Assembly: GCA_018660305.1 (NCBI GenBank)
Contig: JABJKO010000110.1
Location: 1 to 24,198, forward strand
Reading direction: 5' to 3'
DNA: 24,198 nt
DNA from: Rhodospirillaceae bacterium
GTDB taxonomy: Bacteria; Pseudomonadota; Alphaproteobacteria; MPNO01; UBA2964
The first letter of the stretch is position 1. The number at the start of each line of letters is the position of its first letter. Under the pieces are notes generated by a model, which saw nothing but the letters and a program-made list of their open reading frames with translations, was not told the DNA's origin and did no database searches. Both the position numbers and the translations under genes were made by a program. Shown piece after piece: positions 7,936-24,037 of this stretch.

Positions 7936-8039
7936 CGCGATACACGATTCGGTGAGAAAATCTTGTTGCGGTTGGATTTAATCCCCAACTCTGCGACACT
8001 TGCCATAAATATTTTTAGTCATTTATCCGGGAGAACTCC

Positions 8040-8891: not shown

Positions 8892-8911
8892 CGAAAGCCA
8901 TAGACAGTCCC

Positions 8912-9649
8912 ATGACGGAAGCAAGCAGCCCAGCCAATTGGCGGACACGGATCGGAACAATTGTTCCTGTCAGCAACACCACCAATGAGGTGGAATTCAA
9001 CCGGATGAAACCGGATGGCGTCTCCGTCCATTTCACCCGTGTGCCCCTCGAAAGCAATCCGGCCGAGGACGATTTCAAGGTCATGCTGGAGCAAGCCGGC
9101 CGGGCCAGCACGGAACTGGCCGCCGCCGGCGCCGATGTCGTCGCCTATGGCTGCACCTCGGGCTCCATGGCCTGCCCGTCCGACCGGTTGGTGGGCGCCA
9201 TGCAGGATGCGTCAGGAAAACCCGCCCTTACCACGGCCGGCGCCATACTCGAGGCCCTGAAAGCGCTCGGCACGAAACGCATTGCCATGGCGACACCCTA
9301 TACGGACGCGACCAATGCAAAGGAAAAAGCGTTCGTCGAGCGCCACGGAGTGGAAGTCGCGGACATCAAAGGGTTGGGTCTGGGAGGATCGCTGGATAAA
9401 ATTCAAAAGATTTCGCGCATTTCACCCTCCGAAATCTATGAGCACGCGAAATCCGTCGATCAGCCCGATTGTGATGCCCTGCTCATCTGCTGTACGGATT
9501 TCGGATCCGCCGACGTCGTCCAGGCACTGGAAGACGAGCTGCGAAAGCCGGTCCTGACCAGCAATACCGCGACCATGTGGGCCGCCCTTCGGCAAACCGG
9601 TATCGATACTCCGGTTAAAGGCTACGGCCGCCTGCTGGAAAACTTCTGA
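8912..9649 (+). CDS. Maleate cis-trans isomerase / arylmalonate decarboxylase family (Asp/Glu racemase superfamily)
   Basis: A 245-residue two-domain racemase-fold enzyme. Both expected active-site cysteines are present: C81 in YGCTSGS and C193/C194 in LICCTDFGSADV. The pattern RIGTIVPVSNTTNEVEF near the N terminus and TTAGAILEALKALG in the middle match maleate isomerase-type proteins. It probably isomerises, racemises or decarboxylates a small dicarboxylate in the cytosol. It is the last gene of the TRAP operon, 20 bp after the foldase, so its substrate may be what the transporter brings in. The ribosome site upstream of ATG 8912 is poor, suggesting coupling. It is distantly related to the protein encoded at 19050-19775, which lacks both cysteines. 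Confidence 0.88.
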   Translation: MTEASSPANWRTRIGTIVPVSNTTNEVEFNRMKPDGVSVHFTRVPLESNPAEDDFKVMLEQAGRASTELAAAGADVVAYGCTSGSMACPSDRLVGAMQDASGKPALTTAGAILEALKALGTKRIAMATPYTDATNAKEKAFVERHGVEVADIKGLGLGGSLDKIQKISRISPSEIYEHAKSVDQPDCDALLICCTDFGSADVVQALEDELRKPVLTSNTATMWAALRQTGIDTPVKGYGRLLENF

Positions 9650-9664
9650 CCCAGGGCGCCGGCC

Positions 9665-10069
9665 CTATTTCTGATCCGCTTCGTAGGCATCGATAGCTTC
9701 CTTCGCATTGCGGAACGCATCGACACCAGCCGGAATACCACAATAGACGGTGGCGTGGATCAGAAGCTCGCGAATTTCCTCCACCGTCACGCCATTGCGT
9801 AGCGCTCCACGGGTGTGGGCTTTGAGCTCATTGGGCTTGCCAAGCGCCGTCAGCATGGCGAGGACCAGCATGGAGCGTGTCTTGCGGTCGAGTACCCCTT
9901 CCCGGCCCCAGCCCATGCCCCAGCAATATTCCGTCACAACATCCTGAATAGCGCCGTCGAAATCGTTTTCCTTGGATTTGGCGATATTCGGATCGACATA
10001 TTGTGAACCGAGCACCTCGCGGCGAATATTGAGTCCCTTGTCGTAGGTGTCCTGATTGGAAATCGCCAT
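9665..10069 (-). CDS. Carboxymuconolactone decarboxylase family protein (PcaC-like)
   Basis: A 134-residue single-domain protein with the gamma-carboxymuconolactone decarboxylase pattern: SMLVLAMLTALGKPNELKAH (H85) followed by RGALRNGVTVEEIRELLIH and ATVYCGIPAGVDAF. Length equals that of PcaC. True PcaC decarboxylates 4-carboxymuconolactone in the protocatechuate branch of the beta-ketoadipate pathway, but no other pca gene is in the window, so a related reaction is as likely. ATG 10069 has GGGAGAT directly upstream. It is the last gene of a three-gene minus-strand operon, 24 bp after the EthD-like gene, and its end faces the racemase gene with a 15-bp gap. Confidence 0.88.
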   Translation of the reverse strand: MAISNQDTYDKGLNIRREVLGSQYVDPNIAKSKENDFDGAIQDVVTEYCWGMGWGREGVLDRKTRSMLVLAMLTALGKPNELKAHTRGALRNGVTVEEIRELLIHATVYCGIPAGVDAFRNAKEAIDAYEADQK

Positions 10070-10093
10070 TTATATCTCCCAATATATTTGCGG

Positions 10094-10786
10094 CTATGAG
10101 CCGGTTTTCAAAAATCGTTTATTGCGACGATGGTAGGTAACAAAGAGCGGTGTGAACCATGATTGAGCCGCCAGTTTTTTTCGCCACTCGGTCTCGCGTG
10201 CCTGCTTAAGCGCCTCGGACTCAAGAGCGCTCTCGTCCTTCAGATAGTGAAGGATCATGTGGGTGTAGGGCTCGGGATCACACGTGACGATATCGAAGCG
10301 CCGCGCCATCAGCCAATCGGGACATTCCAGCAGCATGGGGATGTGCTCTGTGTCATACCAGGATTCAAAATTCCCCCGCTGTTCCATGGGAACGGCGAAG
10401 AAAACACACAACACCATCGGCGCGTCCAATGCTATCTCTTTAAGATCCTCGCGGGTTTGGGAAAAAGCCTCTACCCCGATATAGCGGGTAAAGCCAGAAA
10501 CCGACTGCAGCATCTCATAGGTCGGGCTGTCGGGCGTCAGCTTGCGCTTTTTGTACTCCTCATGATCCAGGGTCTCCGGACCGTCGAGTTCGTAAACCGC
10601 CAGATAGTGCGGTCCCTCACCGGACTGATAGCGCATGGCACTGACGAAACCCGGCACACCCTGCACATGACTTGGAGAATGATGGCCATCGTACCAGTCG
10701 TTGAAGGCATCCTCCTGACCATCCGGCGGTGTCATTTCGGAAAACAGAACCGCACTGCCTTTGACCTCTTGCAGGGTCTTGGACAT
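10094..10786 (-). CDS. Tandem dimeric alpha+beta barrel protein (EthD-like)
   Basis: 230 residues containing two related half-domains: FNDWYDGHHSPSHVQGVPGF (residues 28-47) and FESWYDTEHIPMLLECPDW (130-148). The WYD-x-x-H signature is typical of EthD/monooxygenase-like ferredoxin folds, here duplicated in one chain so that a monomer could mimic the usual dimer. I chose ATG 10786 because GAGGAG lies 6 nt upstream; the longer start at 10816 would run into the aminotransferase gene. It sits 11 bp after that gene and 24 bp before the CMD gene, so all three are co-transcribed. EthD-like proteins appear in degradation clusters with often unknown roles; an isomerase, cyclase or decarboxylase-like role is possible. 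Confidence 0.8.
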   Translation of the reverse strand: MSKTLQEVKGSAVLFSEMTPPDGQEDAFNDWYDGHHSPSHVQGVPGFVSAMRYQSGEGPHYLAVYELDGPETLDHEEYKKRKLTPDSPTYEMLQSVSGFTRYIGVEAFSQTREDLKEIALDAPMVLCVFFAVPMEQRGNFESWYDTEHIPMLLECPDWLMARRFDIVTCDPEPYTHMILHYLKDESALESEALKQARETEWRKKLAAQSWFTPLFVTYHRRNKRFLKTGS

Positions 10787-10797
10787 ATCCAACTCCT

Positions 10798-12129
10798 CTA
10801 TGCCATGGCCCGGCAAGCAGCATCGAGCGCCCGCGTGGTCTCCTCGAAATCCTCATCGGAATGAACCGCGGAGACAAACCGCCGGACACCCGGCAACACA
10901 TAAATCCCATTCTTCATCTGGTGAAGATCCAGATCGCGTGTCGAAGCCATGTCCGCCTGGATAAAATCGCTGAAATCCTGCGGCTCGTTTTCCATGAACA
11001 CGATTTGCCAGAGAGATCCCTTGCCAATCGCCTTCGCCGGAAGATTATGACGATCCAGAACATCCTGGCAGGCCGCCTGAAGATCAGCCGCCCGGCCGTG
11101 GAGCCGGTCATAAAACCCCGGTGTGCGAAGCTCCGCCAACGTCGCCAGACCCGCCGCGCACCCGATGGGATTTCCGTGCAGAGTGCCGTTGATATAGGCG
11201 TAATTGTCCTTGCCCCGGTTCACCGGATTGCACTGCTCCATGATCTCGTTCTTGCTGGCGACGCAGCCGACGGGTCCGCCGCCGCCGGCAATTTTGCCAT
11301 AGCTCGCCAGATCCGGCGTCACGCCGAAATATTCCTGAGCCCCGCCATAGGCAAGACGAAAGCCGGTAACCACCTCATCGAAAATCATCAGCACATCATT
11401 GTCGTCGCAAATCTTGCGGAGACCCTCCAGATAACCGTCCTTGGGAAAGATGATCCGCTGCACCGGCTCAACGATGATGGCAGCCAGGTCGTCGCGGTGC
11501 TCTTCGACGATCTTCCGCACCGTCTCCAAATCGTTATAGGGGGCGACAAGCACTGATTCAGCCAGGGACGCCGGCATGCCCGCCGTGTCAGGCCGACCAG
11601 CCGGGTAGTTGGACAGCGCCCGCGGTGACACCGAAAAATTCGAGTAATCGTGATTGCCGTGATAGCCGCCTTCGCATTTCAGGATCTTGCTGCGGCCGGT
11701 GAACGCCCGGGCGATCCGCATGGCATAAAAGGTGGCTTCCGACCCGGTGGAGGTAAAGGCGATCTTTTCCGCACAGGGAATGGCGTCCACCAGTTCCCTG
11801 GCAAGAAGAACCGCCGCCTCATTGAGAGTCCCGAAAAAATGCAGCCCCTTGGGCGCCTGCTCTCGTACGGCGGCGACAACCGATGGGAAGGCATGTCCCA
11901 GAATAAGGGCGCCGGCGCCGCCCACGTAATCGATATACCAGCGGCCGCGAACATCCTGCAGTCGCGATCCTTCGCCTTTATGGATCATGAAACGAACATC
12001 ATCGGGAAGCGAATAGCCGCCCAGGCCGGCGCCCGGCAATACCTGAGCCGCTAGATCGTAATACTCTTCGTGGCTCATCGCGCCGACCGGCTGGCCGGTT
12101 TGGTCGATGGCGGTTTCCGCTGGGGACAT
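10798..12129 (-). CDS. Class III PLP-dependent aminotransferase (glutamate-1-semialdehyde aminomutase-like)
   Basis: A 443-residue fold-type I PLP enzyme. STGSEAT (127-133) should bind the cofactor phosphate, GGYHGNHD (154-161) stacks on the ring, D251 in IFDEVVTGFR holds the pyridine nitrogen, and K279 in YGKIAGGGGPVG is the Schiff-base lysine. The overall pattern is that of HemL-like aminotransferases outside the haem pathway, acting on an amino or oxo acid. ATG 12129 is preferred because AGGAG lies about 10 nt upstream; an open extension to 12252 has no homology-like character. It is first in the minus-strand operon with the EthD-like and PcaC-like genes. Substrate unknown; a beta-amino acid transaminase or an aminomutase are alternatives. 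Confidence 0.9.
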   Translation of the reverse strand: MSPAETAIDQTGQPVGAMSHEEYYDLAAQVLPGAGLGGYSLPDDVRFMIHKGEGSRLQDVRGRWYIDYVGGAGALILGHAFPSVVAAVREQAPKGLHFFGTLNEAAVLLARELVDAIPCAEKIAFTSTGSEATFYAMRIARAFTGRSKILKCEGGYHGNHDYSNFSVSPRALSNYPAGRPDTAGMPASLAESVLVAPYNDLETVRKIVEEHRDDLAAIIVEPVQRIIFPKDGYLEGLRKICDDNDVLMIFDEVVTGFRLAYGGAQEYFGVTPDLASYGKIAGGGGPVGCVASKNEIMEQCNPVNRGKDNYAYINGTLHGNPIGCAAGLATLAELRTPGFYDRLHGRAADLQAACQDVLDRHNLPAKAIGKGSLWQIVFMENEPQDFSDFIQADMASTRDLDLHQMKNGIYVLPGVRRFVSAVHSDEDFEETTRALDAACRAMA

Positions 12130-12330
12130 GGCACTTTTTCTCCTGTGACTCTCATAGCGAGACCGCTTGAAACCTAATGCCGCCTCTGCAGGAGTACAAG
12201 CGTATCCCTTGAATTGCGTCGAATTTATCCCCGCTGGACTTATCCAGATCAATTTGGGGCGAGCAGAAGGGGTGCAATGTCAATTTTTGGGCTATTGTTT
12301 TGGTTCATCAGATGGGACGGAGGCAACACG

Positions 12331-13779
12331 ATGACAGGTCATCACAATAACGGCATCACCGGGACGGATATCCACGCCAAGCTCAAGCATCCAGTAGTTG
12401 ATGCCGACGGGCACATGATCGAGACCACTTTCGCGATCCTTGATTTCCTCAAGCAAGTTGCCGGCCCGGATATGGCCGCAAAATACGAGGTCGAGTTGAA
12501 TGCCGACATGACCTCGCGTGGCAGACGCGCGGTGTGGGTCGGCAATTCGGGTCCCTCTTCCATCGACCGCGCTACCGCCATGCTGCCGCGGCTCTATTAC
12601 GAACGGCTTGACGAGGCGGGCATCGATTTTGGCATCGTATATGGTACCCAGGCGTTGAGCGTCCTGCGGACCAGCGATGACGAGCTTCGCCCAGCGCTTT
12701 ATCGGGCCATGAACACCATGTATGCGGACATGTTCGACGGGCTGGCCGACAGGTTGACGCCGGCGGCGCTGATCCCCATGCACAAGCCCGACGAGGCCAT
12801 TGCTGAGCTGGAATTCGTGGTGAAGGAGCTGGGGCTCAAGGCCATCGTCATGAATACCCAGATTCATAAAGCGGCGAAACAGGTCCTCGACGAGGCACCT
12901 CATCTGGCACATTTTGCTACGACACCCACCTCGCCGGCGATCGACCAGGGCGATGCCTATGATCCAGTATGGGCAAAGTGCGTCGAGCTTGGTGTGGCAC
13001 CAACCTGTCACAATTCATCGCGTGGTTGGGGCACCCTGCATAACTCTCCAAGCAATTACGTATTCAACTCGCTCAACAGTTTCGGCAAGGGTAGTGAATA
13101 TTTTTGCCGCGCGTTATTTATGGGCGGCGTACCGCACCGGTTCCCGACACTTAAATTTGCTTTCCTCGAAGGTGGCGCGGGCTGGGCAGCGCAACTTTAT
13201 AACAGCCTGTTCGAATATTGGGAGAAACGGAACCTTGAAGCCTTGAGGACTACGCTTGATCCCACGACGCTCGATGTGGATTTAGTGGTCGAAATGTTCG
13301 AGAAATACGGCAATGCCTACCTGACACCGGAACGCATTCGCGCCGATCCCGATCATCCAATCTCGACGCGCCTCAAAGTACCGCCGGAGGAAATGGATGA
13401 TTTTGCGCCCACCGGTGTCAAGAAACCGGAGGATATTCGCGACATCTTCAATCGTAACTTCTATTTCGGCTGCGAGGCCGACGATAGCCTCAACGGCGTC
13501 GCGTTTGATTCCCGCATCAACCATTACGGGCTCAAGCTTAATGCCATACTGGGATCGGATATCGGCCACTGGGACGTGCCCGACATGACCAAGGTCATGG
13601 TGGAAGCTTACGAGATGGTCGATGACGGATTCATGACTGACGACGATTTTCGCGAATTTACTTTCGGCAATGTAGTTAGCATGCACACCGGCATGAACCC
13701 CGATTTTTTCAAGGGCACCGTGGTCGAAGGCGCGGTCGATAAGTATCTGACCGAGTCCGCTGCAGCCGCGGCAGAGTAA
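12331..13779 (+). CDS. Amidohydrolase-2 family metal-dependent hydrolase
   Basis: A 482-residue amidohydrolase-related protein, longer than the ACMSD type. The N-terminal VVDADGHMIE (21-31) has Asp in place of the first His of the usual HxH, a variant common in this subfamily. H227 (TCHNSS), the segment GGVPHRFPTLKFAFLEGG (265-282) and D410 (ILGSDIGHWD) supply the other likely metal or catalytic residues. ATG 12331 is the start because GGAGG lies 7 nt upstream (12319-12323); the open frame runs back to 12214 without a ribosome site. It leads an operon with a Lin0512-family gene (34 bp downstream) and a CMD-family gene. A decarboxylase or hydrolase role on a ring acid is probable; the substrate is not known. 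Confidence 0.88.
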   Translation: MTGHHNNGITGTDIHAKLKHPVVDADGHMIETTFAILDFLKQVAGPDMAAKYEVELNADMTSRGRRAVWVGNSGPSSIDRATAMLPRLYYERLDEAGIDFGIVYGTQALSVLRTSDDELRPALYRAMNTMYADMFDGLADRLTPAALIPMHKPDEAIAELEFVVKELGLKAIVMNTQIHKAAKQVLDEAPHLAHFATTPTSPAIDQGDAYDPVWAKCVELGVAPTCHNSSRGWGTLHNSPSNYVFNSLNSFGKGSEYFCRALFMGGVPHRFPTLKFAFLEGGAGWAAQLYNSLFEYWEKRNLEALRTTLDPTTLDVDLVVEMFEKYGNAYLTPERIRADPDHPISTRLKVPPEEMDDFAPTGVKKPEDIRDIFNRNFYFGCEADDSLNGVAFDSRINHYGLKLNAILGSDIGHWDVPDMTKVMVEAYEMVDDGFMTDDDFREFTFGNVVSMHTGMNPDFFKGTVVEGAVDKYLTESAAAAAE

Positions 13780-13813
13780 CGCTCACCAAACCAACAAACG
13801 GAGGAGTCGCTAA

Positions 13814-14155
13814 ATGGCCCTTAAACGCATGATCCTTGAAATCGGTATGGGCAATGATTTGCATGGCGGTGATTACACCAAGGCCGCCGTGCGCGCTGTG
13901 CAGGATGCGGTGCACCACAGCTCGCTGAGTATGATCCGCTCGCTGGGAATCGATTGGAAAGAGGTCCGGATCACCATTACCATTGGCGTTCAGAACCCCG
14001 ACACCATCGATGCCGACGCCGTCAAAGCCACACTTCCGGGAGGGCAGATTACCGTCCACTCAGTCCAGGGCGGTCTCGACATCCCCGATCCCGGCGCGGA
14101 CGATCTCGCCGTCATTGCCACAGCCGCCGTCGAGGTCTTTGTGGATTTGCCCTGA
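13814..14155 (+). CDS. Lin0512 family protein
   Basis: 113 residues matching the Lin0512 family of short conserved proteins: EIGMGNDLHGGDYTKAAVRAVQDAV (about 9-33), then a conserved VRITITIGVQNPDTID and a C-terminal IPDPGADDLAVIATAAVEVFVD. The family's role is unknown to me; homologues often lie in degradation clusters. ATG 13814 has a strong GGAGGAG 7 nt upstream. Its position between an amidohydrolase and a CMD-family protein, with gaps of 34 and 49 bp, suggests the three act together, perhaps with this protein as a partner or small-molecule binder. The conserved D-x-x-K-A-A-x-R stretch could be a ligand site, but this is speculation. Confidence 0.85.
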   Translation: MALKRMILEIGMGNDLHGGDYTKAAVRAVQDAVHHSSLSMIRSLGIDWKEVRITITIGVQNPDTIDADAVKATLPGGQITVHSVQGGLDIPDPGADDLAVIATAAVEVFVDLP

Positions 14156-14204
14156 GTAGGGCACACTGATGGAACACCATAAGTAACAAACAGGGAGACG
14201 AGAC

Positions 14205-14750
14205 ATGACACGCATTACCATATTGTCGTCGGACGACATGAATGACGAACAGAAAGCCGTGATCGAGGCCTCCAAGGCCAGTGGCAAGCCCCATGGCGGC
14301 CCCTTCTGGGCTTATATCCGTCATCCGAAGCTGATGCAGAATGTCCAGGATACGGGCGGCCTTATTGCCGGCAGCACGCTTTCCGCCCGCGAACAGCAGA
14401 TCGCCACGCTCACCGTCGCCCGGTTCTGGAGCGCCAATTATCCCTGGGCCGTCCAGGTGCGAAACGGGCTCAAGGTCGGGCTGAGCGAAGAGGAAATTAA
14501 CGCCCTCAATAACCGAAGCGCCCTTCCCACCGACGACAATCGGGAACTCCTGGCGCATCAGGTCGCCAACGAACTCCTTGCCGACAAGGGATTGAGCGAC
14601 GCGACCTACGCGGCAGCGGAAGACGCCTACACCACAGAAGAACTGGTCGCGTTGGTTGCTCGGGTGGGCTCGTTCTCGATGACCTGCTGCACCGCCAATG
14701 CTTTCGATATCACGCCGCCCGACGACGCGCCGTCACGGCTCGTCGGTTAA
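14205..14750 (+). CDS. Carboxymuconolactone decarboxylase family protein (AhpD-like fold)
   Basis: A 181-residue CMD-domain protein. The core is SAREQQIATLTVARFWSANY followed by PWAVQVRNGLKVGLSEEEI (about 61-100), the segment that usually reads Y-E-W-x-x-H. Here the His is replaced by Gln (AVQVR). There is no CxxC peroxidatic motif at that site; a CC pair (MTCCTAN) occurs near the C terminus. It therefore belongs to the redox-inactive CMD branch rather than true AhpD. ATG 14205 follows AGGGAGA. It closes the amidohydrolase/Lin0512 operon, and a repeat-rich promoter region follows it. A ring-opening, decarboxylation or lactone step is plausible but undetermined. Confidence 0.85.
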   Translation: MTRITILSSDDMNDEQKAVIEASKASGKPHGGPFWAYIRHPKLMQNVQDTGGLIAGSTLSAREQQIATLTVARFWSANYPWAVQVRNGLKVGLSEEEINALNNRSALPTDDNRELLAHQVANELLADKGLSDATYAAAEDAYTTEELVALVARVGSFSMTCCTANAFDITPPDDAPSRLVG

Positions 14751-14761
14751 TTTCAAAACTC

Positions 14762-14821
14762 GTCAATTGCTGGGGACACTAATTGACAAGCCAGATTGGG
14801 CGGTATTAGTTATCGCATAAC
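14762..14821 (+). promoter_or_regulatory. Putative promoter and operator upstream of the ABC importer operon
   Basis: GTCAATT (14762-14768) and AATTGAC (14781-14787) form a 7-bp inverted repeat with a 12-bp centre. Its right arm overlaps a perfect -35 hexamer TTGACA (14783-14788). The best -10 candidate, TATTAG (14804-14809), is only 15 bp away and imperfect. A second palindrome, GTTATCGCATAAC, covers 14809-14821. The arrangement looks like operator-controlled initiation, but no regulator gene is adjacent. Confidence 0.4.
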
Positions 14822-14890
14822 CATAACGGATCGTGCCTCGGAAGAAGAGAAACGGTCGTCGCAAAAACAATTTTAGCAATGGGGGATTCA

Positions 14891-16000
14891 ATGACTCGGC
14901 GTAGTGACAAGAAGACGAACACCAGCGTTTCACGGCGTACAATCATCAAGGGCAGCACCGGTCTCGGGCTCATGCTGGCCGCGGGCGTCGCACCGGCCTT
15001 TATCCGTGAGGCAGGCGCTTCGAAAATGCGGAAAGTCAATTTCATGCTGCCCTGGCTGTTTGTCGGCGGCCATACGTTCGAATTCGCCGCCCAGGCCGAA
15101 GGCTGGAAGAAACGCGGTCTCGACGTCTCCATCCAGCGCGGTTACGGATCAGGCGCGGCCATCAAATCCGTCGCCACCAAGACCGTCAATTTCGCCGAAG
15201 CCAGCTACGGCCCGGCGGTGAACGCGGCCTCTAAAGGCCTCGATGTCGTCGCCATTGGCGCCAAATTGCAAAAGAATCCCATGGCGATTTCCTGCCGCAA
15301 GGATTCCGGCATCCGCTCACCAGGGGATTTGATGGGGAAATCCATGGTGCAGGCAGCCGCTTCTGGCGACACGCTATTGTTCCCCGGCTTCGCAAAGGGC
15401 GCCGGCATTGACGTGAGCAAGATCAACCGCAACATGGTTCATCCCAGCAAGCTCATCAGTTCGGTTGTCAACAAGCAGGCCGATTGCACCGGCACATATT
15501 ATGTGAGTAATGCCGCATCGTTGGCGAGCAGGACACCCACCGTGCATTTCATGTATGCCGATTACGGCCTGCAGACTCTCGATCTCGGACTTATCAGCCG
15601 CTCGGACATGATCAAGAATGAGCCCGATCTGGTGCAGGCAATGGTCGATGGTGCCATGGAGGGGCTGAAACTTCAGTTGCTCAATCCGGAAAAAGCCCTC
15701 GATTACATGATCGCGGCCCGGCCCGAACTCAAGACCAAACCGCGCAGCCTGCTGCTGACCCATTCGGGGAATACCAACTTCCTCTCCATCGGACCGTCAG
15801 TGGAACAGAATGGTCTGGGCTGGATGGGCGAAGCCGATCAGACGCGGACACGTGACGTGGTCATCAAATACATGAATGCCAAAAACGTACCGCCCATCAG
15901 CAAATTGTTCACAAACAAGTTTGCCGGCAATGTCAAACTGTCGGCTGCCGAGTGGGCTCAGGCCAAGGCCAAAACCGCGAAATTCAATCCGAAGGGCTGA
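14891..16000 (+). CDS. ABC transporter substrate-binding protein, NMT1/SsuA-like, Tat-exported
   Basis: A 369-residue receptor for a nitrate/sulfonate/taurine-type importer. It has a twin-arginine signal (SRRTIIKG at about 14-21, then a hydrophobic stretch ending near REAGA). The mature part begins KMRKVNFMLPWLFVGGH and has the two-lobed NMT1 features GYGSGAAIKSVATKTVNFAEAS and GIRSPGDLMGKSM. The family binds pyrimidine precursors, sulfonates, riboflavin or aromatic acids; the ligand cannot be assigned. I chose ATG 14891 because GGGGGA lies just upstream; the ATG at 14879 overlaps that site. The ATPase and permease genes follow on the same strand. A strong hairpin lies just after the stop, probably setting receptor excess. 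Confidence 0.92.
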   Translation: MTRRSDKKTNTSVSRRTIIKGSTGLGLMLAAGVAPAFIREAGASKMRKVNFMLPWLFVGGHTFEFAAQAEGWKKRGLDVSIQRGYGSGAAIKSVATKTVNFAEASYGPAVNAASKGLDVVAIGAKLQKNPMAISCRKDSGIRSPGDLMGKSMVQAAASGDTLLFPGFAKGAGIDVSKINRNMVHPSKLISSVVNKQADCTGTYYVSNAASLASRTPTVHFMYADYGLQTLDLGLISRSDMIKNEPDLVQAMVDGAMEGLKLQLLNPEKALDYMIAARPELKTKPRSLLLTHSGNTNFLSIGPSVEQNGLGWMGEADQTRTRDVVIKYMNAKNVPPISKLFTNKFAGNVKLSAAEWAQAKAKTAKFNPKG

Positions 16001-16020
16001 GCAGCGCGATAACACAGCAT

Positions 16021-16057
16021 GGTTTGTCCGTCCCCGATCCATGGGGACGGACAAACC
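16021..16057 (+). terminator. 15-bp perfect hairpin after the ABC receptor gene
   Basis: GGTTTGTCCGTCCCC (16021-16035) pairs perfectly with GGGGACGGACAAACC (16043-16057) around a 7-nt loop. No U tract follows (CGCGCATG). It lies in the 92-bp gap between the receptor and ATPase genes, matching the position of the hairpin in the TRAP operon, and probably protects receptor mRNA or attenuates the downstream genes. Confidence 0.6.
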
Positions 16058-16092
16058 GCGCATGACCCATCAGTCACCTAGTATCCAGTATC

Positions 16093-16857
16093 ATGACAAC
16101 CGAAAACGTCCACGTCCGGGTCAGGGATCTCCGAAAGACCTATCAAACCCGTCGTGAGGATATCGAGGCCATTCGCGAAGTCCAGATGGAGGTCGCGCAG
16201 GGCGAATTTGTGTCAATCCTCGGACCGAGCGGCTGTGGCAAAAGCACCCTGTTGATGATCATCGGGGGCCTGCTTCCCATGACGTCGGGCAATGTGGAAG
16301 TCGGCGACGAACCGGTCGCAGGACCCAGACGCGATACCGGGGTGGTCTTTCAGGCCCCGGTCCTCATGCCTTGGCGCACCATCTTCAAGAACGTGATGTT
16401 CCCCATCGAAAGCCTGGGGCTGACGCCATCGGATTATCACGACCACGCAAATGAATTGCTGGAAATGACCGGCCTCGGCGGGTTTGGCGATAATTTCCCG
16501 AGCGAATTGTCGGGCGGCATGCAGCAGCGGGTCGCCATCTGCCGGGCATTGATCCACAACCCCAATCTCCTGCTGATGGATGAGCCGTTCAGTGCGCTGG
16601 ATGCCATAACCCGCGACACCATGAACCAGGAATTGCTGCGCATCTGGGAGGAATTCCAGAAAACCGTGCTGTTCGTGACCCACAGTATTCGCGAGGCGGT
16701 GTTTCTATCGGACAGGATCTTCGTCATGTCGCCCCGGCCGGCCACCATCAGCGAAATCGTCACCATCGACCTGCCCCGCCCGCGCGATCTGTCCATCGAG
16801 GAAACACCCGAGTTCAACAAATATGTCGCCCATCTGCGGGCGGCCATAGATCACTAG
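16093..16857 (+). CDS. ABC transporter ATP-binding protein (SsuB/TauB/NrtD-like)
   Basis: A 254-residue ATPase with all motifs intact: Walker A GPSGCGKST (44-52), Q-loop Q87, signature LSGGMQQR (139-146), Walker B LLLMDEP (159-165), D-loop SALD and switch H197 (FVTHS). The C-terminal MSPRPATISEIVTIDLPRPRD is characteristic of the nitrate/sulfonate/taurine importer branch. It powers the importer formed with the permease 18 bp downstream and the receptor upstream. ATG 16093 has little Shine-Dalgarno but is the first start consistent with family length. Confidence 0.95.
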   Translation: MTTENVHVRVRDLRKTYQTRREDIEAIREVQMEVAQGEFVSILGPSGCGKSTLLMIIGGLLPMTSGNVEVGDEPVAGPRRDTGVVFQAPVLMPWRTIFKNVMFPIESLGLTPSDYHDHANELLEMTGLGGFGDNFPSELSGGMQQRVAICRALIHNPNLLLMDEPFSALDAITRDTMNQELLRIWEEFQKTVLFVTHSIREAVFLSDRIFVMSPRPATISEIVTIDLPRPRDLSIEETPEFNKYVAHLRAAIDH

Positions 16858-16875
16858 GCGGAAAGAGACGCAGCG

Positions 16876-17667
16876 ATGGCAAAAAAGGATGAAGACGGCC
16901 GGATTTACACGATTGCAAGCCGTTCGGCCGGTCCCACCGCCATCTTTCTTCTGATGCTGGTCATCTGGCACGTGGCGGTTATTACGCTCGAGATCCCCGA
17001 GCCCATCCTCCCGACACCGTGGAAGATCATTACGACCATCTTCACCCATTGGGAATTGCTGCTGATCCATAGCTGGCCCACCACCAGCGAATGCCTGATG
17101 GGTTTCTTCCTGGCCGTGGTCATCGGCATGGGGTTGGGTACGTTACTCGCCCTCTATCCGGTGTTCCACAATACGGTCTATCCGTTGATCGTCGCCTTCC
17201 AGGTGGTGCCAAAAGTGGCCCTGGCACCGCTCTTTATCGTGTGGTTCGGGCTGGGAACCCTCAACCGTGTGCTGCTTGCCTTCGTCATCGCGTTCTTTCC
17301 CATGGTGGTGAACACCTATGCCGGCATCCTGAGCACCGATCCCCTCATGGTGCGCATGGCCCATGCCTTCAACGCCAGCCGGTGGACAGTCTTCCTCAAG
17401 ATCGAATTCCCCAACGCCCTGCCTTCAATCTTCAGCGGGCTAAAAATCGGCATCACCTTTGCGGTTATCGGCATCATCGTCGCCGAAATCGTCACCGCGC
17501 AAAGAGGACTGGGCTATTTGATCGTCTTTGCCGAAGGCAACGTGGACACGCCCATGCTCATGGCGGCCCTGACCGTTCTCAGTCTGGTGGGCATGCTTCT
17601 TTATGCCGCCGTGGCCGCCGCCGAGAAGCTGGTCATCACCTGGGATCATGGCCAGAAGCTGAACTGA
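16876..17667 (+). CDS. ABC transporter permease (SsuC/TauC-like)
   Basis: A 263-residue inner-membrane permease with about six helices. The family segment VPKVALAPLFIVWFGLG (111-127) and the EAA coupling loop (about 164-192, with FLKIEFPNALPSIFSGLKIG) identify the BPD_transp_1 fold of the sulfonate/nitrate group. It probably forms a homodimer with the ATPase encoded 18 bp upstream. AAAGAGA precedes ATG 16876. Its last 32 bases overlap, on the opposite strand, the end of the EamA permease gene, so transcription of the two genes converges without an intergenic terminator. Confidence 0.93.
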   Translation: MAKKDEDGRIYTIASRSAGPTAIFLLMLVIWHVAVITLEIPEPILPTPWKIITTIFTHWELLLIHSWPTTSECLMGFFLAVVIGMGLGTLLALYPVFHNTVYPLIVAFQVVPKVALAPLFIVWFGLGTLNRVLLAFVIAFFPMVVNTYAGILSTDPLMVRMAHAFNASRWTVFLKIEFPNALPSIFSGLKIGITFAVIGIIVAEIVTAQRGLGYLIVFAEGNVDTPMLMAALTVLSLVGMLLYAAVAAAEKLVITWDHGQKLN

Positions 17668-18535
17668 TTGCCGTTTCCGCCTTCTTTTCCTGGGCCGCCT
17701 CGGCGCGGGCAAGGACATAGGTGGAAATAAAGATCACCGCCGCCCCGATCCAGGTCCAGAGATCCGGCGTCTGGGCAAAGAGAAAATAACCAATCGCCGC
17801 CACGCAGGGCAGCCGGATGAACATCACCGGCTCCACCAGGCTAGCATCGGCCACCGCGAAGGACCGCGTCAGGCAATATTGCGCGCCAAAGGCGACCGCG
17901 CCGAACCCGAGGAGCGGCAGCACATGGTCCCAGCCCGGCGTGACCCAGACAATGGCCGCCGGAATGGCCGCCATGGGGAGTTGCAGCAGGAAACCGTAGA
18001 ACATGATCACAGAAGTGGATTCGGTGCTGGTCAGCGCCCGGTTCGTCACATTGCTGCTGCCATAGAGCACAGCCGCCAGGATGGCGATGGGCACACCGGC
18101 ATTAACGGCCTCAAAGCCGGGGCGGACAATGATCCCGACCCCGACAAAGCCGAAGACCAGTGCCGCCCAGCGATGCTTACCGACTATCTCCTTGAGAAAG
18201 ACGATGGCGAGAATGGTGGTAAAGAGCGGCGTGGTGAATTGCAGCGCCACCGCATCGGCTAGCACGATCAGCGTATAGGCATAGTATGATGCGAGCATGC
18301 CCGTGTAGGACAGGGCGGCCCGCAGGGTCAGCATGGGCAACCGGCTGGTCCGCATGGAGGAGACGCCAATGCGCATGAGCCACGGCACCATGAACACCAC
18401 GCCGATCAGCTGACGGATGAAGACAATTTCAAAGGTATTCAGCGTTTCCGACAGATGGCGGACAAACCCCACCGACGTGGAAAAGAACAGGGCGGCGCCC
18501 AACATCCACAGCATGCCCCTCGTGCCGGGGGTCAT
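17636..18535 (-). CDS. EamA/DMT-family transporter (RhaT/YdcZ-like ten-helix exporter)
   Basis: A 299-residue membrane protein with ten hydrophobic segments arranged as two EamA repeats (about 8-140 and 150-285). MLGAALFFSTSVGFVRHLS, FIRQLIGVVFMVPWL and the second-repeat SLVEPVMFIRLPCVAAIGYFLF are typical of drug/metabolite transporters with broad substrates. ATG 18535 has GGGAGG a few bases upstream on the minus strand. It is transcribed alone, convergent with the ABC operon and overlapping the permease end by 32 bp. An efflux role for a metabolite or amino acid is inferred from the family; the substrate is unknown. Confidence 0.9.
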   Translation of the reverse strand: MTPGTRGMLWMLGAALFFSTSVGFVRHLSETLNTFEIVFIRQLIGVVFMVPWLMRIGVSSMRTSRLPMLTLRAALSYTGMLASYYAYTLIVLADAVALQFTTPLFTTILAIVFLKEIVGKHRWAALVFGFVGVGIIVRPGFEAVNAGVPIAILAAVLYGSSNVTNRALTSTESTSVIMFYGFLLQLPMAAIPAAIVWVTPGWDHVLPLLGFGAVAFGAQYCLTRSFAVADASLVEPVMFIRLPCVAAIGYFLFAQTPDLWTWIGAAVIFISTYVLARAEAAQEKKAETAISSASGHDPR

Positions 18536-18670
18536 GACTTGCCTCCCTTCCGGACAGGTCTATGCCGGTGTCTGATCAATTTTTCTTCACGCAACTTTGT
18601 GGAATGAAAGGATGCCTGCGCATGTTTATAAGCTTGAAGATTGCATCATTCCGTTCAGGAGGACCCGGTC

Positions 18671-19039
18671 ATGGCCCGAATGTCTTATTCTGTCATAGGC
18701 GTGCTCATCGCGACAGCGCTCACCGGGTGCAAAACGGATTATCAAATCCTCAATGAGCAGGCGCGGGCCTATGTCGCCGTTCATAAAGACCTCGACCGGA
18801 ACACCGCTAGTGCCATCGCCGCCAATCGCATCCGAAATGGCATGAGCAAGAACCAGGTCGTCGCCGCCTGGGGCCATCCCGTACTGGTTCAACGATTCGA
18901 CAACGGCCTGGAATATTGGTTTTTTGGCTGCGTCTGGCCGCACCAATGCGAAAGCCTGTCAATCGGCATGTCCCCCGAGGAACAATATCTGTCCCGCGCC
19001 CTGTTCCGTGACGGCAGGGTCATCGATTGGCGGGGATAG
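18671..19039 (+). CDS. Small lipoprotein with BamE/SmpA-like fold
   Basis: 122 residues. A lipoprotein signal ends at the lipobox LTGC, so C20 should be lipidated. The segment RNGMSKNQVVAAWGHPVLV (about 56-74) followed by the aromatic-rich GLEYWFFGCVWP resembles the start of BamE/OmlA and related beta-lactamase-inhibitor-like domains (GM-x-x-x-x-V-x-x-x-x-G-x-P). ATG 18671 is preferred because GGAGG sits at 18658-18662; an open extension to 18641 has no such site. Envelope location is likely and a Bam-complex role is not shown. Two extra cysteines (GCVWPHQC) could form a disulfide. It is a single gene between convergent and divergent neighbours. Confidence 0.7.
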   Translation: MARMSYSVIGVLIATALTGCKTDYQILNEQARAYVAVHKDLDRNTASAIAANRIRNGMSKNQVVAAWGHPVLVQRFDNGLEYWFFGCVWPHQCESLSIGMSPEEQYLSRALFRDGRVIDWRG

Positions 19040-19049
19040 CGCTGTCCCG

Positions 19050-19775
19050 CTAGGATTTCTCGAAAAGACGCCCCAGTTCGGGAGGCGGTTGATATTCGCC
19101 GACCTTCGACGCCAATCGGCGAATACCGGCCCACAGGGCCGCCTGGATACTGGTCACGACGGGCTTGCTGAGTTTTTCCTCGATGGGTGCGATCCCTTCC
19201 AGCATGGTCGTATAGGAGCCGCTCAGAAAAAAACCGTCTCCATCTTCGCGATCATGGGCCTGCGCCGCGGCGACCCATTCGGCGGGCGCTAGCAAGGCCG
19301 ATCCCTCTCCCAACCCGAGGCCGGCGGCATGGGCGACCGTGAAGCCGGCGGCTTCCAGATAAATCCGCTCCCGGCCAAAGGCCGCCTCGTCCAGGGGATG
19401 GATCAGGATAACCCGTTCAATGGCGAGGGCCTGAAGCGATTCCACCACGGCCTGCGTCGCCGTAAAAGTTGGAATACCGGTGGCCTCGGCAATGGCGCGC
19501 ACGATGTCCGCCTCGCCTTCCGGCCCGCGCTCCATCATGATGCCAGTGGCCTGCAAATCGATAACATCGACACCGGCATCGGCCAGCAATTCCGCGCAGG
19601 CGATGGCGTCGCCTCTGATATCGTCGCTTGGCCGGCGGCCGCCTGACCCCATCTGCATTCTCGTTACGTGAATGCCCAGCCCCCGCGGGGCAAAGGTCCG
19701 GAAATAGGGCTCCACCGTCCGGTTGCCGGAAGACAGGATGACCCCGAGGCGGGCTGTCGGCAGAATCGTCGACAT
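19050..19775 (-). CDS. Asp/Glu racemase-superfamily protein lacking both catalytic cysteines
   Basis: 241 residues related to maleate isomerase/arylmalonate decarboxylase proteins and to the product of 8912-9649. Shared landmarks are LGVILSSGNRTVEPYF, the T-x-T-Q-A-V-V-E-S-L-Q-A-L segment (about 105-117) and KPVVTSIQAALWAGIRR (about 204-220). At the first active-site position the usual GCTS is replaced by LQATG (74-78), and at the second the usual CC-T-D by LSGSYT (184-189). The only cysteine is C60, elsewhere. The chemistry must differ or be lost. ATG 19775 has AAAGGA about 10 nt upstream; the extension to 19859 lacks a ribosome site. It is a single minus-strand gene. It could be a decarboxylase with another acid/base, a ligand-binding protein, or inactive. 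Confidence 0.75.
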   Translation of the reverse strand: MSTILPTARLGVILSSGNRTVEPYFRTFAPRGLGIHVTRMQMGSGGRRPSDDIRGDAIACAELLADAGVDVIDLQATGIMMERGPEGEADIVRAIAEATGIPTFTATQAVVESLQALAIERVILIHPLDEAAFGRERIYLEAAGFTVAHAAGLGLGEGSALLAPAEWVAAAQAHDREDGDGFFLSGSYTTMLEGIAPIEEKLSKPVVTSIQAALWAGIRRLASKVGEYQPPPELGRLFEKS

Positions 19776-19921
19776 GGCAGACGTCCTTTTATTACGCTGA
19801 TCGGTTGCGCAGCCCGATAGTTTAGCCCCCAATGGTCGGAACACCAAATGGCGCGCCACACCTTTAGGCGGGGTACGCCGATCCGGAGCGATCCCGGATT
19901 CCGGTGGCGGGGGAACATGTC

Positions 19922-20323
19922 ATGCAAAGGCTTTTGATATTTTGTTGCCTGACCATAATGGCCTGTAGCCCTGCCGGGGCCATTGAGGTTCTCCATTGCA
20001 CCGATACGGATGCGATCGGTTATCAGTGGAAAAATGGGATGCCAAGCGCCACCCGCTATGTCCCGCTGAGCTTCGTGGTCAAAATCAACGGCCCGACTGA
20101 GCGGATCATCGATAGCCCAAGCCGGGATTACAATGATCAAAAATATCGCTGCAGCGCGCTGGAAAACCCACCAGGAACGCTCGCGTGCGCGCGCATGAAC
20201 TCGGCCACCGGCTATCCCATTAATTTCAGGGACAACCGCTTTGAACGCGTCGGTAATTTAAGCGCCCAGATAGGGGGTTCGCCGGACCTTTATGTGGCTT
20301 ATGGCCAATGCGAACCCTTTTGA
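19922..20323 (+). CDS. Small secreted hypothetical protein with four mature cysteines
   Basis: 133 residues. The N terminus MQRLLIFCCLTIMACSPAGA is a likely Sec signal with cleavage after A20; a poor lipobox (IMAC) makes a lipoprotein possible but less likely. The mature part has four cysteines (LHC, YRC, LAC, GQC), consistent with two periplasmic disulfides, and mixed beta-like character. I do not recognise the family. ATG 19922 follows GGGGGA; a longer start at the GTG 19904 is also open. It ends 8 bp before the end of the convergent selenoprotein-like gene. Confidence 0.55.
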   Translation: MQRLLIFCCLTIMACSPAGAIEVLHCTDTDAIGYQWKNGMPSATRYVPLSFVVKINGPTERIIDSPSRDYNDQKYRCSALENPPGTLACARMNSATGYPINFRDNRFERVGNLSAQIGGSPDLYVAYGQCEPF

Positions 20324-20331
20324 ATCCCAAG

Positions 20332-20883
20332 TCAATCAGCCGAATCCGGCTGATAACGGCCCTCGGATTCCACCAGGAAGACGCGGTTGATCCGCGCCCG
20401 GTAATTCTCCAGCGCCACGGTCGCGGCGAGTTCCACTAACTGCGCCTCACTGAAATGCGCGGCGGCATCGGCGAACATCGCGTCAGATATATCCGCCGGC
20501 ATTTCCGTCATGGCTTCGGCGATTTCCAGCGCAGCCCGCTCGGCCTCGCTGAACAGATCGCTATCGCGCCACAGGGCAACAGCCGCAATTTTGTCATCGG
20601 AACTTCCGGCAACGCTGCTCCCGGCAGCGTTGGTGTCAATTCAGAACGGACAGGTGATCATCTGAGCCGCCCGGAGACACACCAGCCCCCGCAATTCGGC
20701 ACTCAGGGTCCCGCTTTTGGCGGGCATGACGTTGAGCGCGCGGCTGGCAATCAGGACTTCCGGGCAACGGGACATAATACCGATACCGGCACCCACATGT
20801 CCGGCGGCCTCCTGCGCGGCTTCCATAATCGGCCTCGCTTCCGCCGGCGCTTGTTCGATGGTGAGCGGCTCTAATCTGGTCAT
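20332..20883 (-). CDS. Candidate selenoprotein, CMD/AhpD-like, with in-frame UGA (C-P-F-U)
   Basis: Reading through one UGA (20641-20643) gives a 183-residue CMD/AhpD-family protein ending at TGA 20332-20334. The 80 residues before it end LVCLRAAQMITCPF, and the frame resumes IDTNAAG, where the family normally reads C-x-x-C-I-D-x-H. The UGA thus replaces the second redox cysteine, giving C78-P-F-U81. The normally following His is Asn. After the UGA the family pattern continues: ALWRDSDLFSEAERAALEIA, EMPADI, AAHFSEAQLVELAATVALEN and a YRARINRVF end. ATG 20883 has GAGGGA 8-9 nt upstream. A SECIS-like hairpin follows the UGA (separate entry). Family members act as thiol peroxidases or reductases. 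The alternatives are a nonsense-mutated pseudogene or an 80-residue fragment; no other frame damage is seen, which argues against both. Confidence 0.75.
20610..20632 (-). promoter_or_regulatory. Putative bacterial SECIS element downstream of the in-frame UGA
   Basis: On the coding (minus) strand, the arms CAACGCTGC and GCAGCGTTG form a perfect 9-bp stem closing the 5-nt loop CGGGA. The stem starts 8 nt after the UGA and the loop 17 nt after it. A G is the second loop base, as recalled for the general bacterial SECIS consensus. It lacks the GU loop and bulged U of E. coli fdhF, so fit to a given SelB is uncertain. It lies wholly inside the coding frame, as bacterial SECIS elements do. Confidence 0.6.
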
Positions 20884-21047
20884 GGGTTTTCCCTCGTGAT
20901 CATTCGGTCAGGTCATAGGGTATTGCTGTTCTCGATGGACGGCAAACCCGGAATTGGGTGTGCCTGCGGAATGAGTCGCCGGCCCATCCGCCCCGTGTTA
21001 GGCTTTTTTTGCTATCTCCACATCGAACAACAAATAAGGAGGGAGTC

Positions 21048-22085
21048 ATGGTAGTACGTGTTTTCACGACAGCTATCCTATCCGCGTCCGTATTTGGTTT
21101 AGTTGCGGCCATGCCGATGGCCGGTGTATCGGCAAAAGATTTCTTTAAGGACAGAACAATCACGGTGGTCGTGCCGTCCGGCAGCGGCGGGTCATTTCAC
21201 ATCTATTGCCAGCTTGTGCAGCGTCACATCGGCAAGTACATACCCGGCAGGCCCAAGGCCATCATCCAGAACCGGCCCGGGGCCGCCGGCGTCAAATCGT
21301 TACGCTTCATGTCCACGGCAGCGCCGAAGGACGGCACCATGATCGCGATGATCAATCCCGGTACGACGATGACGCCGATCCTGAGGCCCAAAATGGGTTA
21401 TGACGCGACGAAGCTGCAATGGCTTGGCGCCGCGTCGGTACGCACCTATACGCTGGGCGTCTGGCACACCGTGCCCATAAAGAGCATCGCCGACGCGAAG
21501 AAGCGGGTGACCACGCTGGCTTCCAGCGGCAAAGGCGCGACAAGCACACTTTTGCCGCAGCTGATGAATAAGCTTATCGGCACGAAGTTCAAGGTTATCC
21601 ATGGCTATAAGGGCGGTGGGGCGATGAACCTCGCGGTCGAACGTGGCGAGGTGGAAGGCCGCACCAATTATTATTCGGGTTACACCGGTGCGCGGCCGCA
21701 CTGGCTTCGGGAGGGCAGAATTACCTTCCTCGCGACCTTCGGGCCGCCGCGCCCCGAAGTTAAGAATGTGCCCCGGTTCGTCGACATGGTGAAACCCGGG
21801 ATCGACCGTGAGATGGTCAACATTCTCGAATCCAACTTCAATGTGGGACAGGCGTTCTACGTGCCGCCCGGCGTGCCCAAGAAAACCGTCAATATTTTGC
21901 GGAAATCCTTCGGCGCCATGGTCACGGACGCGGCCTTTAAGGCCGAAGCGAAAAAACGGGGCGTACCGACCTACAGCCGCACCTGGCAGCAGGTCGAGGC
22001 CGCGGTGAAGATCGGATACGGCAGTCGAAAGGAAGCGGCGGAACAACTCGCCACCCTCCTCGGCTTCCGCAAGAACAAGAAATAG
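21048..22085 (+). CDS. TctC/Bug-family tripartite tricarboxylate transporter receptor
   Basis: A 345-residue periplasmic binding protein with a signal peptide cleaved after about A29 (MAGVSA|KD). The mature segment DRTITVVVPSGSGGSFHIYC, IIQNRPGAAGVKSLRFM, the Gly-rich ASSGKGATSTLLPQLMNKLIG and YKGGGAMNLAVERGEVEGRT are hallmarks of TctC/Bug receptors, which capture small carboxylates for TctAB or act as sensors. ATG 21048 has a strong GGAGGGAG upstream; the longer open frame to 20958 has none. No TctA or TctB gene follows; a terminator does, so it is an orphan receptor here, as Bug genes often are. It is divergent from the selenoprotein-like gene across a 164-bp region. Ligand unknown. Confidence 0.92.
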   Translation: MVVRVFTTAILSASVFGLVAAMPMAGVSAKDFFKDRTITVVVPSGSGGSFHIYCQLVQRHIGKYIPGRPKAIIQNRPGAAGVKSLRFMSTAAPKDGTMIAMINPGTTMTPILRPKMGYDATKLQWLGAASVRTYTLGVWHTVPIKSIADAKKRVTTLASSGKGATSTLLPQLMNKLIGTKFKVIHGYKGGGAMNLAVERGEVEGRTNYYSGYTGARPHWLREGRITFLATFGPPRPEVKNVPRFVDMVKPGIDREMVNILESNFNVGQAFYVPPGVPKKTVNILRKSFGAMVTDAAFKAEAKKRGVPTYSRTWQQVEAAVKIGYGSRKEAAEQLATLLGFRKNKK

Positions 22086-22096
22086 CGGCGTGGATC

Positions 22097-22135
22097 GGCG
22101 GGCGCTCTTTATAAAGCGCCCGCCACCGCTTTTTT
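22097..22135 (+). terminator. Rho-independent terminator of the TctC/Bug gene
   Basis: GGCGGGCGCT (22097-22106) and AGCGCCCGCC (22115-22124) form a 10-bp GC-rich stem with an 8-nt loop, followed after five bases by T6 (22130-22135). It ends the receptor transcript and lies just before the convergent dehydrogenase stop. Confidence 0.75.
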
Positions 22136-22137
22136 AA

Positions 22138-23121
22138 TCAAGCCAAAACTTCGGGATTGATGACGTTGATTGGCGCACCGGCTTCATAGGCCGTGATCTG
22201 CTCGAAGATTTCACCGAACTGAATTTCGTATTCTTCCTGCGTCACATAACCGATATGCGGCGTACAGATCACATTATCCATATTGAGCAGAGGATGATCC
22301 GTATCGCGCAACGGTTCCTTGACCTCATGGTCCTCATAAACGTCCACCGCCGCCATACCGGGCCGCCCGGCGCGCAACGCCGCCACCAGCGCGCCCGGCT
22401 CGATCAGGGGCGCCCGGCTGGTGTTGACGAGCAGCGCGGTCGGTTTCATGCGCGCCAGATCCGCCGCTGTCACAATGCCCCGGGTCGCGTCATAGAGCCG
22501 CATATGAAGCGTCAGCACATCGCTCTCGGCGAAGAAGTCTTCCTTGCTGGCCGCCACATCATGGCCGTCCGCCCGCGCGCGGTCGCGCGACGCTTCGCGG
22601 GCCCAGACCAGGATACGCATGCCGAATGCCGTGCCGTACTCCGACACCGCCTTGCTGATGCGGCCATAACCGTAGATGCCGAGGGTCTTGCCGCGCAGGG
22701 ACCGGCCGACCTCCATCTGCCAGTGGCCGGCCTTCAGCGACGCCATCTGTTGCGGAATTTTCCGCATGGCCGCGAGCATCAATCCCCAGGTCAATTCGGC
22801 GGTGGCATAGGAGGGCGTCCCCACATGCTGGTTCGAGCACAGGATCACCCCCGCCCGGCTACAGGCCTCCACATCGATATGGGGATAGACGCTGCGCTGA
22901 CTGATGAGCTTCAGATTAGGTAGGCGTTCAATCAGCGGCGCCCGGATATGAGTCCGCTCGCGGATCAGCACCAGCACCTCGGTGTCGGCCAACCGCTCCG
23001 CAAGCGCGTCCAGATCCTGCACATGGTCGTTCCAGATGGTGACGTTGTGACCATCAACCGCAGAGAAAACATCGAGTGTGCGGACAGTATCGAAATAATC
23101 GTCGAGAATGGTGATGTTCAT
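22138..23121 (-). CDS. D-2-hydroxyacid dehydrogenase (NAD-dependent)
   Basis: A 327-residue D-isomer-specific 2-hydroxyacid dehydrogenase. The NAD fold motif is [11 protein letters not shown] (147-156), a GxGxxS variant. The catalytic residues are R236 ([10 protein letters not shown]), an acidic residue in DVYEDHE (260-266, E266 by spacing) and H289 (CTPHIGY). One extra residue between Arg and Glu relative to SerA shifts the Glu. It interconverts a D-hydroxyacid and a 2-oxoacid in the cytosol; 3-phosphoglycerate, hydroxypyruvate and others are possible. ATG 23121 is chosen because upstream starts (23142, 23151) overlap the preceding amidohydrolase. The gene lies 7 bp after that gene, so they form an operon. 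Confidence 0.9.
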
Positions 23122-23128
23122 GGGTTTA

Positions 23129-24037
23129 TCAGCCCTGTTCATCCCATCCAAACAACCGGGCCGGGTTGTCGACGAAGATTTTCTGTCTCAATGCTTCGTC
23201 CGGTGCGAGGTGCGCCAACAAATCCACAAGATCGCCGTCATTGGGAATTTGCCCTGGCGTAAAGGTATTGCCGTGGGGCCAGTCGGTGCCCCATAGCAAA
23301 CGGTCCGGCGCGACCGTTATCAGCGCCTCGGCGAATGGCAGGGCATCGTCCCACGGCGCGCCCGTCTGCGACAGCCGATTGATGCTGCACAGCTTGCACC
23401 AGAAGCGCTGGTCTCGCATGAGATCGACAAGGGTCTGGAACGGCGGGTAGTTAACGCCGTGAACGAAGTCGCAGCGACCCAGATGATCGATGATCACCGG
23501 GATCGAAATTTTGCGGAACCACTCGGCATATTCTACCAGCCCGTCGGGCATAACATGAAACTCGACACACCAGCCGAGCGGCGCAATGCGGGCAATGGCG
23601 CGCTCGAACATGTCGAGATCTACACCACCGCCAAGCTCGTCGATGAGGTTGAAGCGGGCCCCACGAAATCCAGCCGCGTGCAAGCGTTCCAGCTCCGCAT
23701 CGCTGGTCTCATCGTCTATTTTGGCAATTCCGCGGAACCGGTCGCCGACCTCGATCAAAGCATCATGAACAACGCTGTTATCGGTGCCATGCGCGTTGGG
23801 CGTGACCAGCACCGTGCGCTCGATGCCGGTAACCGCGATGATCGCGAGATAATGCTGCAACGGAGCCGCCGGTGGCGTATAGACCCGCTTCGACTGAAAC
23901 GGATAAAGATGCGGCGGCCCGAACAGATGAACATGGGTGTCGCACGCCAGTGGCGGCGGCGCGATCCTGGGCTTCTTCGGATTAGGATCGGGCGGATAAC
24001 AGATGCGGTTCTGCAGCGCCTTGTAGTCCTTTGCCAT
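23129..24037 (-). CDS. Amidohydrolase, 2-pyrone-4,6-dicarboxylate hydrolase (LigI)-like
   Basis: A 302-residue TIM-barrel hydrolase. The metal motif DTHVHLFGP has H35 and H37. DHLGR (184-188) and GTDWPHGN (250-257, D252 the catalytic Asp) match LigI and its relatives, cog3618-type lactonases acting on pyrone or sugar lactones. It may hydrolyse a lactone to an open-chain acid that the neighbouring dehydrogenase could then oxidise or reduce. ATG 24037 has GGGAGGA 7-8 nt upstream; the longer start at 24076 has no such site. It is followed 7 bp later by the dehydrogenase gene. Whether pyrone dicarboxylate itself is the substrate is unproven. Confidence 0.88.

Follow-up and report, generated by a model that had tools for sequence, protein, structure and literature searches.

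AhpD-like selenoproteins with a CxxU motif have been reported since 2005, when 27 sequences were described from the Sargasso Sea, and later Global Ocean Sampling counts are 299 and 70; the surveys, as far as described there, distinguish two kinds, AhpD-like 1 (COG2128/TIGR01926) and AhpD-like 2 (PF02627) (PMC1088965, PMC2398784). Several AhpD/CMD entries are also listed in reviews. In AhpD of the M. tuberculosis type, the proton relay is described as including a Glu located 12 residues before the first Cys and a His located 4 residues after the second (PMC3141380). Here we analysed a stretch of 24,198 nucleotides from a Rhodospirillaceae bacterium (contig JABJKO010000110.1; hereafter, the window), in which a gene on the minus strand is interrupted by one in-frame UGA. 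The gene very probably encodes an AhpD/CMD selenoprotein, its UGA being read as selenocysteine (Sec) by means of SelB and a bacterial Sec insertion sequence (SECIS). A first-pass annotation had proposed this from the letters, naming AhpD-like proteins among the families with reported selenoprotein members, as is indeed the case in the surveys cited above.

The codon in question, codon 81, is TGA in the context ITCPF-U-IDTN, at the second Cys of the expected C-x-x-C; the first-pass annotation had placed it there without stating the strand. Between this TGA and the terminal TGA there are 102 open codons, and no other stop or frameshift interrupts the frame, which agrees with the earlier estimate of about 100 family-like codons. 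Translation with table 11 gives only an open reading frame (ORF) of 80 amino acids, the fragment that standard annotation had been expected to yield. The Pfam CMD domain (PF02627) spans the internal TGA, covering residues 57-124 and passing the gathering cut-off (44.6 bits against 23). In the mechanism that we propose, SelB bound to a hairpin just downstream would deliver Sec-tRNA to codon 81, and the product would be a 183-residue all-helical protein with the redox pair C78-P-F-U81.

The UGA is conserved in relatives. A scan of genome contigs gave one locus (L001), in the nearest relative, the metagenome-assembled genome Proteobacteria bacterium casp150-mb.13 (G001); its gene is 75% identical and has TGA at the same codon. 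Close orthologues of 57-75% identity were found in 7 of the 27 genomes of this relative's order, and all seven have TGA at codon 81; the additional TAA in the orthologue of G019 is its terminal stop. Varied stops and frameshifts in close relatives, named beforehand as counter-evidence, were therefore not what the seven orthologues showed. In a sample of 190 genomes of the class, four matched at E<=1e-25, namely G001 and three genomes outside the 27, each with one TGA. The three distant genes, which are 38-44% identical to the window protein, carry the TGA at the same C-P-F-U position; they are 63-71% identical to one another, that is, they are kin. Among the next-best matches in the order, internal stops are absent and the motif is CxxC where read (13 loci). 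Column 81 is Cys in all eight aligned Cys homologues and in 19 of 19 in a second alignment. In a tree built without L078-L081, a modestly supported branch (75/90) has all 13 Sec or CPFW rows (the latter are described below) on the same side.

The genome of the nearest relative also contains a Cys paralogue of 37% identity (L078, G001:C437:590-1111), which has TGT at this codon in the motif CPFC-IDIN. This paralogue and the Sec orthologue form a natural Sec/Cys pair within one genome.

A pattern scan of 385 genomes of the class gave three matches, only one of which, in G001, was the gene; the other two (L059 and L060, with two mismatches each) were regarded as chance matches, with stops all round. 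A scan of viral contigs gave six stretches that fit a pattern, none of which was a relative. Because the pattern of the class scan was built on the close orthologues, it missed divergent hairpins, which were later found by protein search.

The bacterial SECIS consensus is given as a loop of 3-9 nt, a stem of 4-16 bp, a G within the first two positions of the loop, a distance of 16-37 nt and an energy of at most -7.5 kcal/mol (PMC13188914), and these published rules were applied by script. The window hairpin, with a spacer of 8 nt, a stem of 9 bp, a 5-nt loop CGGGA with G at its second position and an energy of -19.4 kcal/mol, passes them. This bears out the first-pass description of a perfect 9-bp hairpin starting 8 nt after the UGA with a G near the start of its loop; the conserved part of the stem, however, is only 6 bp. 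Of the eight close genes, two, those of the window and of G001, have the full 9-bp stem; all eight have the 6-bp core. The rules on stem, loop and spacing are passed by the window and 10 relatives, with energies of -9.2 to -19.4 kcal/mol where folded. By our own count in the sequence, the loop has its GG at +19/+20 after the UGA both in the window and in the E. coli fdhF control. Neither the window nor the hairpin by itself gave an Rfam match above the gathering score.

Across the eight close genes, 21 nt are invariant at the hairpin whereas the next-longest invariant run is 8, and a run of 21 was reached in none of 2000 synonymous shuffles, a procedure that ignores shared ancestry. Codons of invariant residues are identical at 6 of 7 sites in codons 82-91 but at 10 of 67 elsewhere (Fisher p=2.6e-4). 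In the distant genes the letters of the stem differ and the pairing is kept (GCATCA/TGATGC, TCCGTCA/TGACGGA and TTCCATC/GATGGAA); these hairpins have stems of 6-7 bp and a loop 18-19 nt after the UGA, with a G within its first two positions. By itself a hairpin is weak evidence and it is the conservation that counts, since in 20 other genes of the window 286 of 6492 codons (4.4%) are followed by a hairpin that satisfies a tight rule, namely at least 6 bp, a loop at a distance of 16-20 nt and a G within the first two positions of that loop; under a loose rule (16-37 nt) the number is 921. Given this background, it is very improbable that chance would put a number of unlike stems at one position, although the three distant genes are kin. 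On these comparisons, the predicted read-through and the putative SECIS are strongly supported.

Machinery for Sec is common in the order. SelB above the cut-off was found in 26 of the 27 genomes, tRNA-Sec in 26, SelA in 25 and SelD in 22. SelA is located directly upstream of selB in all 25 genomes that have it. RF01852 also matches all 14 controls at E<=0.001, five of them over the cut-off, so only the best RF01852 match per genome was used. In G001, selB is followed by a tRNA-Sec match that begins 79 nt further on, and SelD is present as well. This genome is a fair proxy for the host of the window, because the dehydrogenase-like, Sec and decarboxylase-like genes (81%, 75% and 69% identical) have common order and strand in the window and L001; their spacing differs. 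In the class sample, full-length SelA (E<1e-140) was found in 23 of 190 genomes but in all three with the distant UGA gene (p=0.0016), and tRNA-Sec is likewise present in these three. The raw SelA tally was 36 of 190 at E<=0.001, of which 35 were over the cut-off; 13 genomes have short or weak matches only, which we take to be other pyridoxal phosphate enzymes. With 35 of 190 genomes, the chance of three out of three would be about 0.006 by our own arithmetic. The search for SelB covered genomes other than G083, G093 and G212. In sum, the conserved UGA, Cys in the same column, the conserved SECIS-like hairpin and the Sec machinery of the relatives support the interpretation of the first-pass annotation.

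Several observations weigh against this interpretation. The selABCD genes of the window's host are inferred from the genomes of relatives. No SelA match was found in G001, the nearest of these, and the 142 nt between the contig edge and its selB match are repeat-like, with no end of selA; these 142 nt lend no support to a truncation of selA at the contig edge, and selA may be either absent from this genome or unassembled. G003, one of the seven genomes with a close orthologue, has no SelD above the cut-off. Folding z-scores are weak (above -2) in five of the seven close genes folded and in all three distant ones, whose hairpins are no more stable than shuffled sequences (z -0.25 to 0.21), and in L079 the minimum-energy fold is in a register other than the SECIS-like one. 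The hairpin of the E. coli fdhF control is equally weak (z -0.36), so the folding z-score was dropped as an argument. The Cys paralogue has no SECIS-like stem over 5 bp by scan, but its 48 nt form another, interrupted stem-loop further down (-12.6 kcal/mol); because of this alternative stem-loop it is unfit as a clean negative control, and the argument was withdrawn.

Database proteins reflect how such a gene is annotated. Among 93 annotated homologues, 54 start with M/V-D-x-N/T-A, which by motif corresponds to codon 82, directly after the UGA, and in one the last residues are CPF. Another five, from contigs of 837-1631 bp, are full length and have Trp at position 81 (CPFW). Judged from the protein records, this pattern is apparently the result of automatic gene calling at a conserved UGA. 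The CPFW proteins, taken from the same records to be probable gene calls with genetic code 4, count among the points against our interpretation. One of the fragments is named as Dehalococcoidia, so the subfamily probably extends beyond Proteobacteria. A sizeable subfamily is thus halved by standard annotation, and a model for it would repair gene calls across many metagenome-assembled genomes.

Other CMD genes may have a UGA as well. P0068 and P0089-P0091 are further short CMD fragments, whose start is close to that of the 54 above but lacks M/V-D-x-N/T-A (MDFG in P0068); they are possibly from other UGA-bearing CMD branches. Weaker TGA-bearing matches were found in five genomes of the order (G003-G007). 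The two that were read (L076:1461-2102 in G003 and L077:1041-1682 in G005) both represent a second CMD-family gene with an in-frame TGA in the motif CRYU, which in L076 scores 62.7 bits to the NCBIfam model NF053654 against a cut-off of 310.

Could the UGA be something other than a Sec codon? The 80-amino-acid ORF of standard annotation is what a nonsense mutation or a miscalled base would give, but the same TGA is present in 10 other genomes, the frame is otherwise intact and selection acts downstream of it, so that a pseudogene or sequencing error is hardly credible. Ratios of nonsynonymous to synonymous substitution (dN/dS) between the window and each of the seven orthologues are 0.14-0.59 before the UGA and 0.11-0.17 after it (codons 92-176), with synonymous differences from the window near saturation (proportion 0.5-0.7). 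In three pairs among the close orthologues the values before/after are 0.13/0.27, 0.43/0.47 and 0.17/0.23, and here the downstream part is not the more constrained. As judged from these substitutions, the codons after the UGA encode protein and are subject to purifying selection, like those before it. Insertion of Trp, as in a code 4-like system, or general read-through would fit the five CPFW proteins; these, however, are on short contigs and were taken above as code-4 calls. TGA is a normal stop in the window, where it ends 11 of the 23 other long genes and is internal in none, and the Cys of homologues at this column, the SECIS-like hairpin and the Sec machinery also speak against such decoding, which we regard as very improbable. 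Equally improbable are two separate proteins, the second restarting at codon 82. Although 54 of the 93 annotated matches begin there, codon 82 is ATT, ATC or ATA, not ATG, in the window and in six of the seven close orthologues. A restart would also cut the CMD domain in half and leave the Cys at the UGA column unexplained.

If Sec is inserted, the reaction has to be considered. The predicted fold is confident (predicted local distance difference test score 96.3) and matches AhpD-like structures. Sec81 would stand at the place of the second Cys in the catalytic CxxC of AhpD-like proteins. There it would most likely be the attacking selenolate on peroxide or a related oxidant, a selenenylsulfide would form between Sec81 and Cys78, and this would be re-reduced by a thiol donor. 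Fold and motif suggest such peroxide/thiol chemistry with moderate confidence. The classical AhpD relay is lacking: in all 13 full-length Sec or CPFW rows, position 66 is G, Y, F, A, S or H and position 85 is Asn, so the Asn that the first-pass annotation had seen in place of the nearby His is general. The loss of both relay residues is compatible with a Sec-dependent reductive dehalogenase like the debrominase Bmp8, rather than a peroxidase. Foldseek ranks Bmp8 chains first (6ohj/6ohi, E 1.5e-7) and phmmer ranks them second, the fold matching at full length with residues 4-168 of the window protein aligned; on the other hand, Bmp8 has the motif CMYC, was solved with a tribromopyrrole bound, and is about 24% identical. 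Deiodinases provide an analogy for a Sec-dependent dehalogenase. We consider a dehalogenase of this kind improbable. A broader idea, which is speculative and also rather unlikely, is that the genes represent a widespread clade of Sec proteins with the AhpD fold that has lost the relay, with a non-acidic residue for Glu and Asn for His, and in which a selenolate of low pKa works without it. The reaction may have changed, for example to Bmp8-like reductive dehalogenation by attack on the halogen. Since G001 has both a Sec and a Cys version, alike in their CPF(U/C)-ID-x-N surroundings, the benefit of Sec without the AhpD relay residues could be tested directly.

Features of the predicted selenoprotein locus and its conserved neighbours in the window
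Feature	Position	Strand	Basis
CMD/AhpD-like selenoprotein gene (predicted), 183 codons and TGA stop	20332..20883	minus (20883 to 20332)	sequence, Pfam, orthologues
In-frame UGA, codon 81, predicted Sec	20641..20643	minus	TGA in 7 close and 3 distant orthologues
C-P-F-U redox motif, codons 78-81	20641..20652	minus	sequence, alignments
Asn85 codon, position of AhpD relay His	20629..20631	minus	alignment; relay positions as described in PMC3141380
SECIS-like hairpin with a stem of 9 bp, 6 bp of it the conserved core, and the loop CGGGA at 17 nt after the UGA	20610..20632	minus	script scan, folding, conservation
GAGGG, Shine-Dalgarno-like, 7 nt before ATG	20891..20895	minus	seen directly in sequence
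Arylmalonate decarboxylase-like neighbour	19050..19859	minus	Pfam; same order and strand in L001, 69% over 97 aa
2-Hydroxyacid dehydrogenase-like neighbour	22138..23151	minus	name by sequence reading; same order and strand in L001, 81% over 327 aa

The comparison of neighbourhoods in G003-G007 and G019 used raw stop-to-stop frames. Synteny is claimed for the window and L001 only, because antisense frames of the Sec gene confound the other clusters. The region 5977-23151 of the window is catabolic-looking: by Pfam it has DctM and TctC transporter parts, an EamA transporter, and arylmalonate decarboxylase-like and amidohydrolase genes, and by sequence reading alone also aminotransferase-like and ATP-binding cassette (ABC)-importer-like genes. 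Two more CMD-domain genes, at 9665-10069 on the minus strand and 14205-14750 on the plus strand, have no CxxC in their translations. One of these two is near the 4-carboxymuconolactone decarboxylase PcaC (127.2 bits, cut-off 155.7) and the other is weakly related to NF053654 (34.2 bits).

The window protein scores lower than the cut-off of each NCBIfam model. Its best-scoring model is NF053654, a YciW-related (seleno)protein, in which window residues 1-175 correspond to positions 1-175 of 179; it scores 99.1 bits against the cut-off of 310, and four orthologues and three CPFW proteins score 100.9-127.5. The score to TIGR01926, the peroxidase-related enzyme, is 46.7 bits against 81.8. None of the four orthologues scanned reaches a selenoprotein or peroxidase subfamily cut-off, and one of them passes only TIGR00778, the general AhpD core domain. 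We found no paper on the CPFU/DxN subfamily in the open-access literature. The AhpD-like proteins of the PA0269/Atu0492 type (2o4d, 2gmy) differ in having Cys instead of Sec, and His at +4 where the Sec subfamily has Asn. With the AhpD-like selenoproteins of the surveys, the window gene shares the CMD/AhpD domain, a CxxU with Sec as the second residue, a bacterial SECIS and Cys homologues; the comparison is by their description only, and some of the published sequences may already belong to the subfamily of the window. The claim of a new selenoprotein therefore holds at the level of the subfamily and not of the kind, which has been known since 2005. Because CxxU AhpD-like proteins are published and the NCBIfam cut-offs are not reached, we regard the window gene as a member of a new subfamily within a known kind of selenoprotein.
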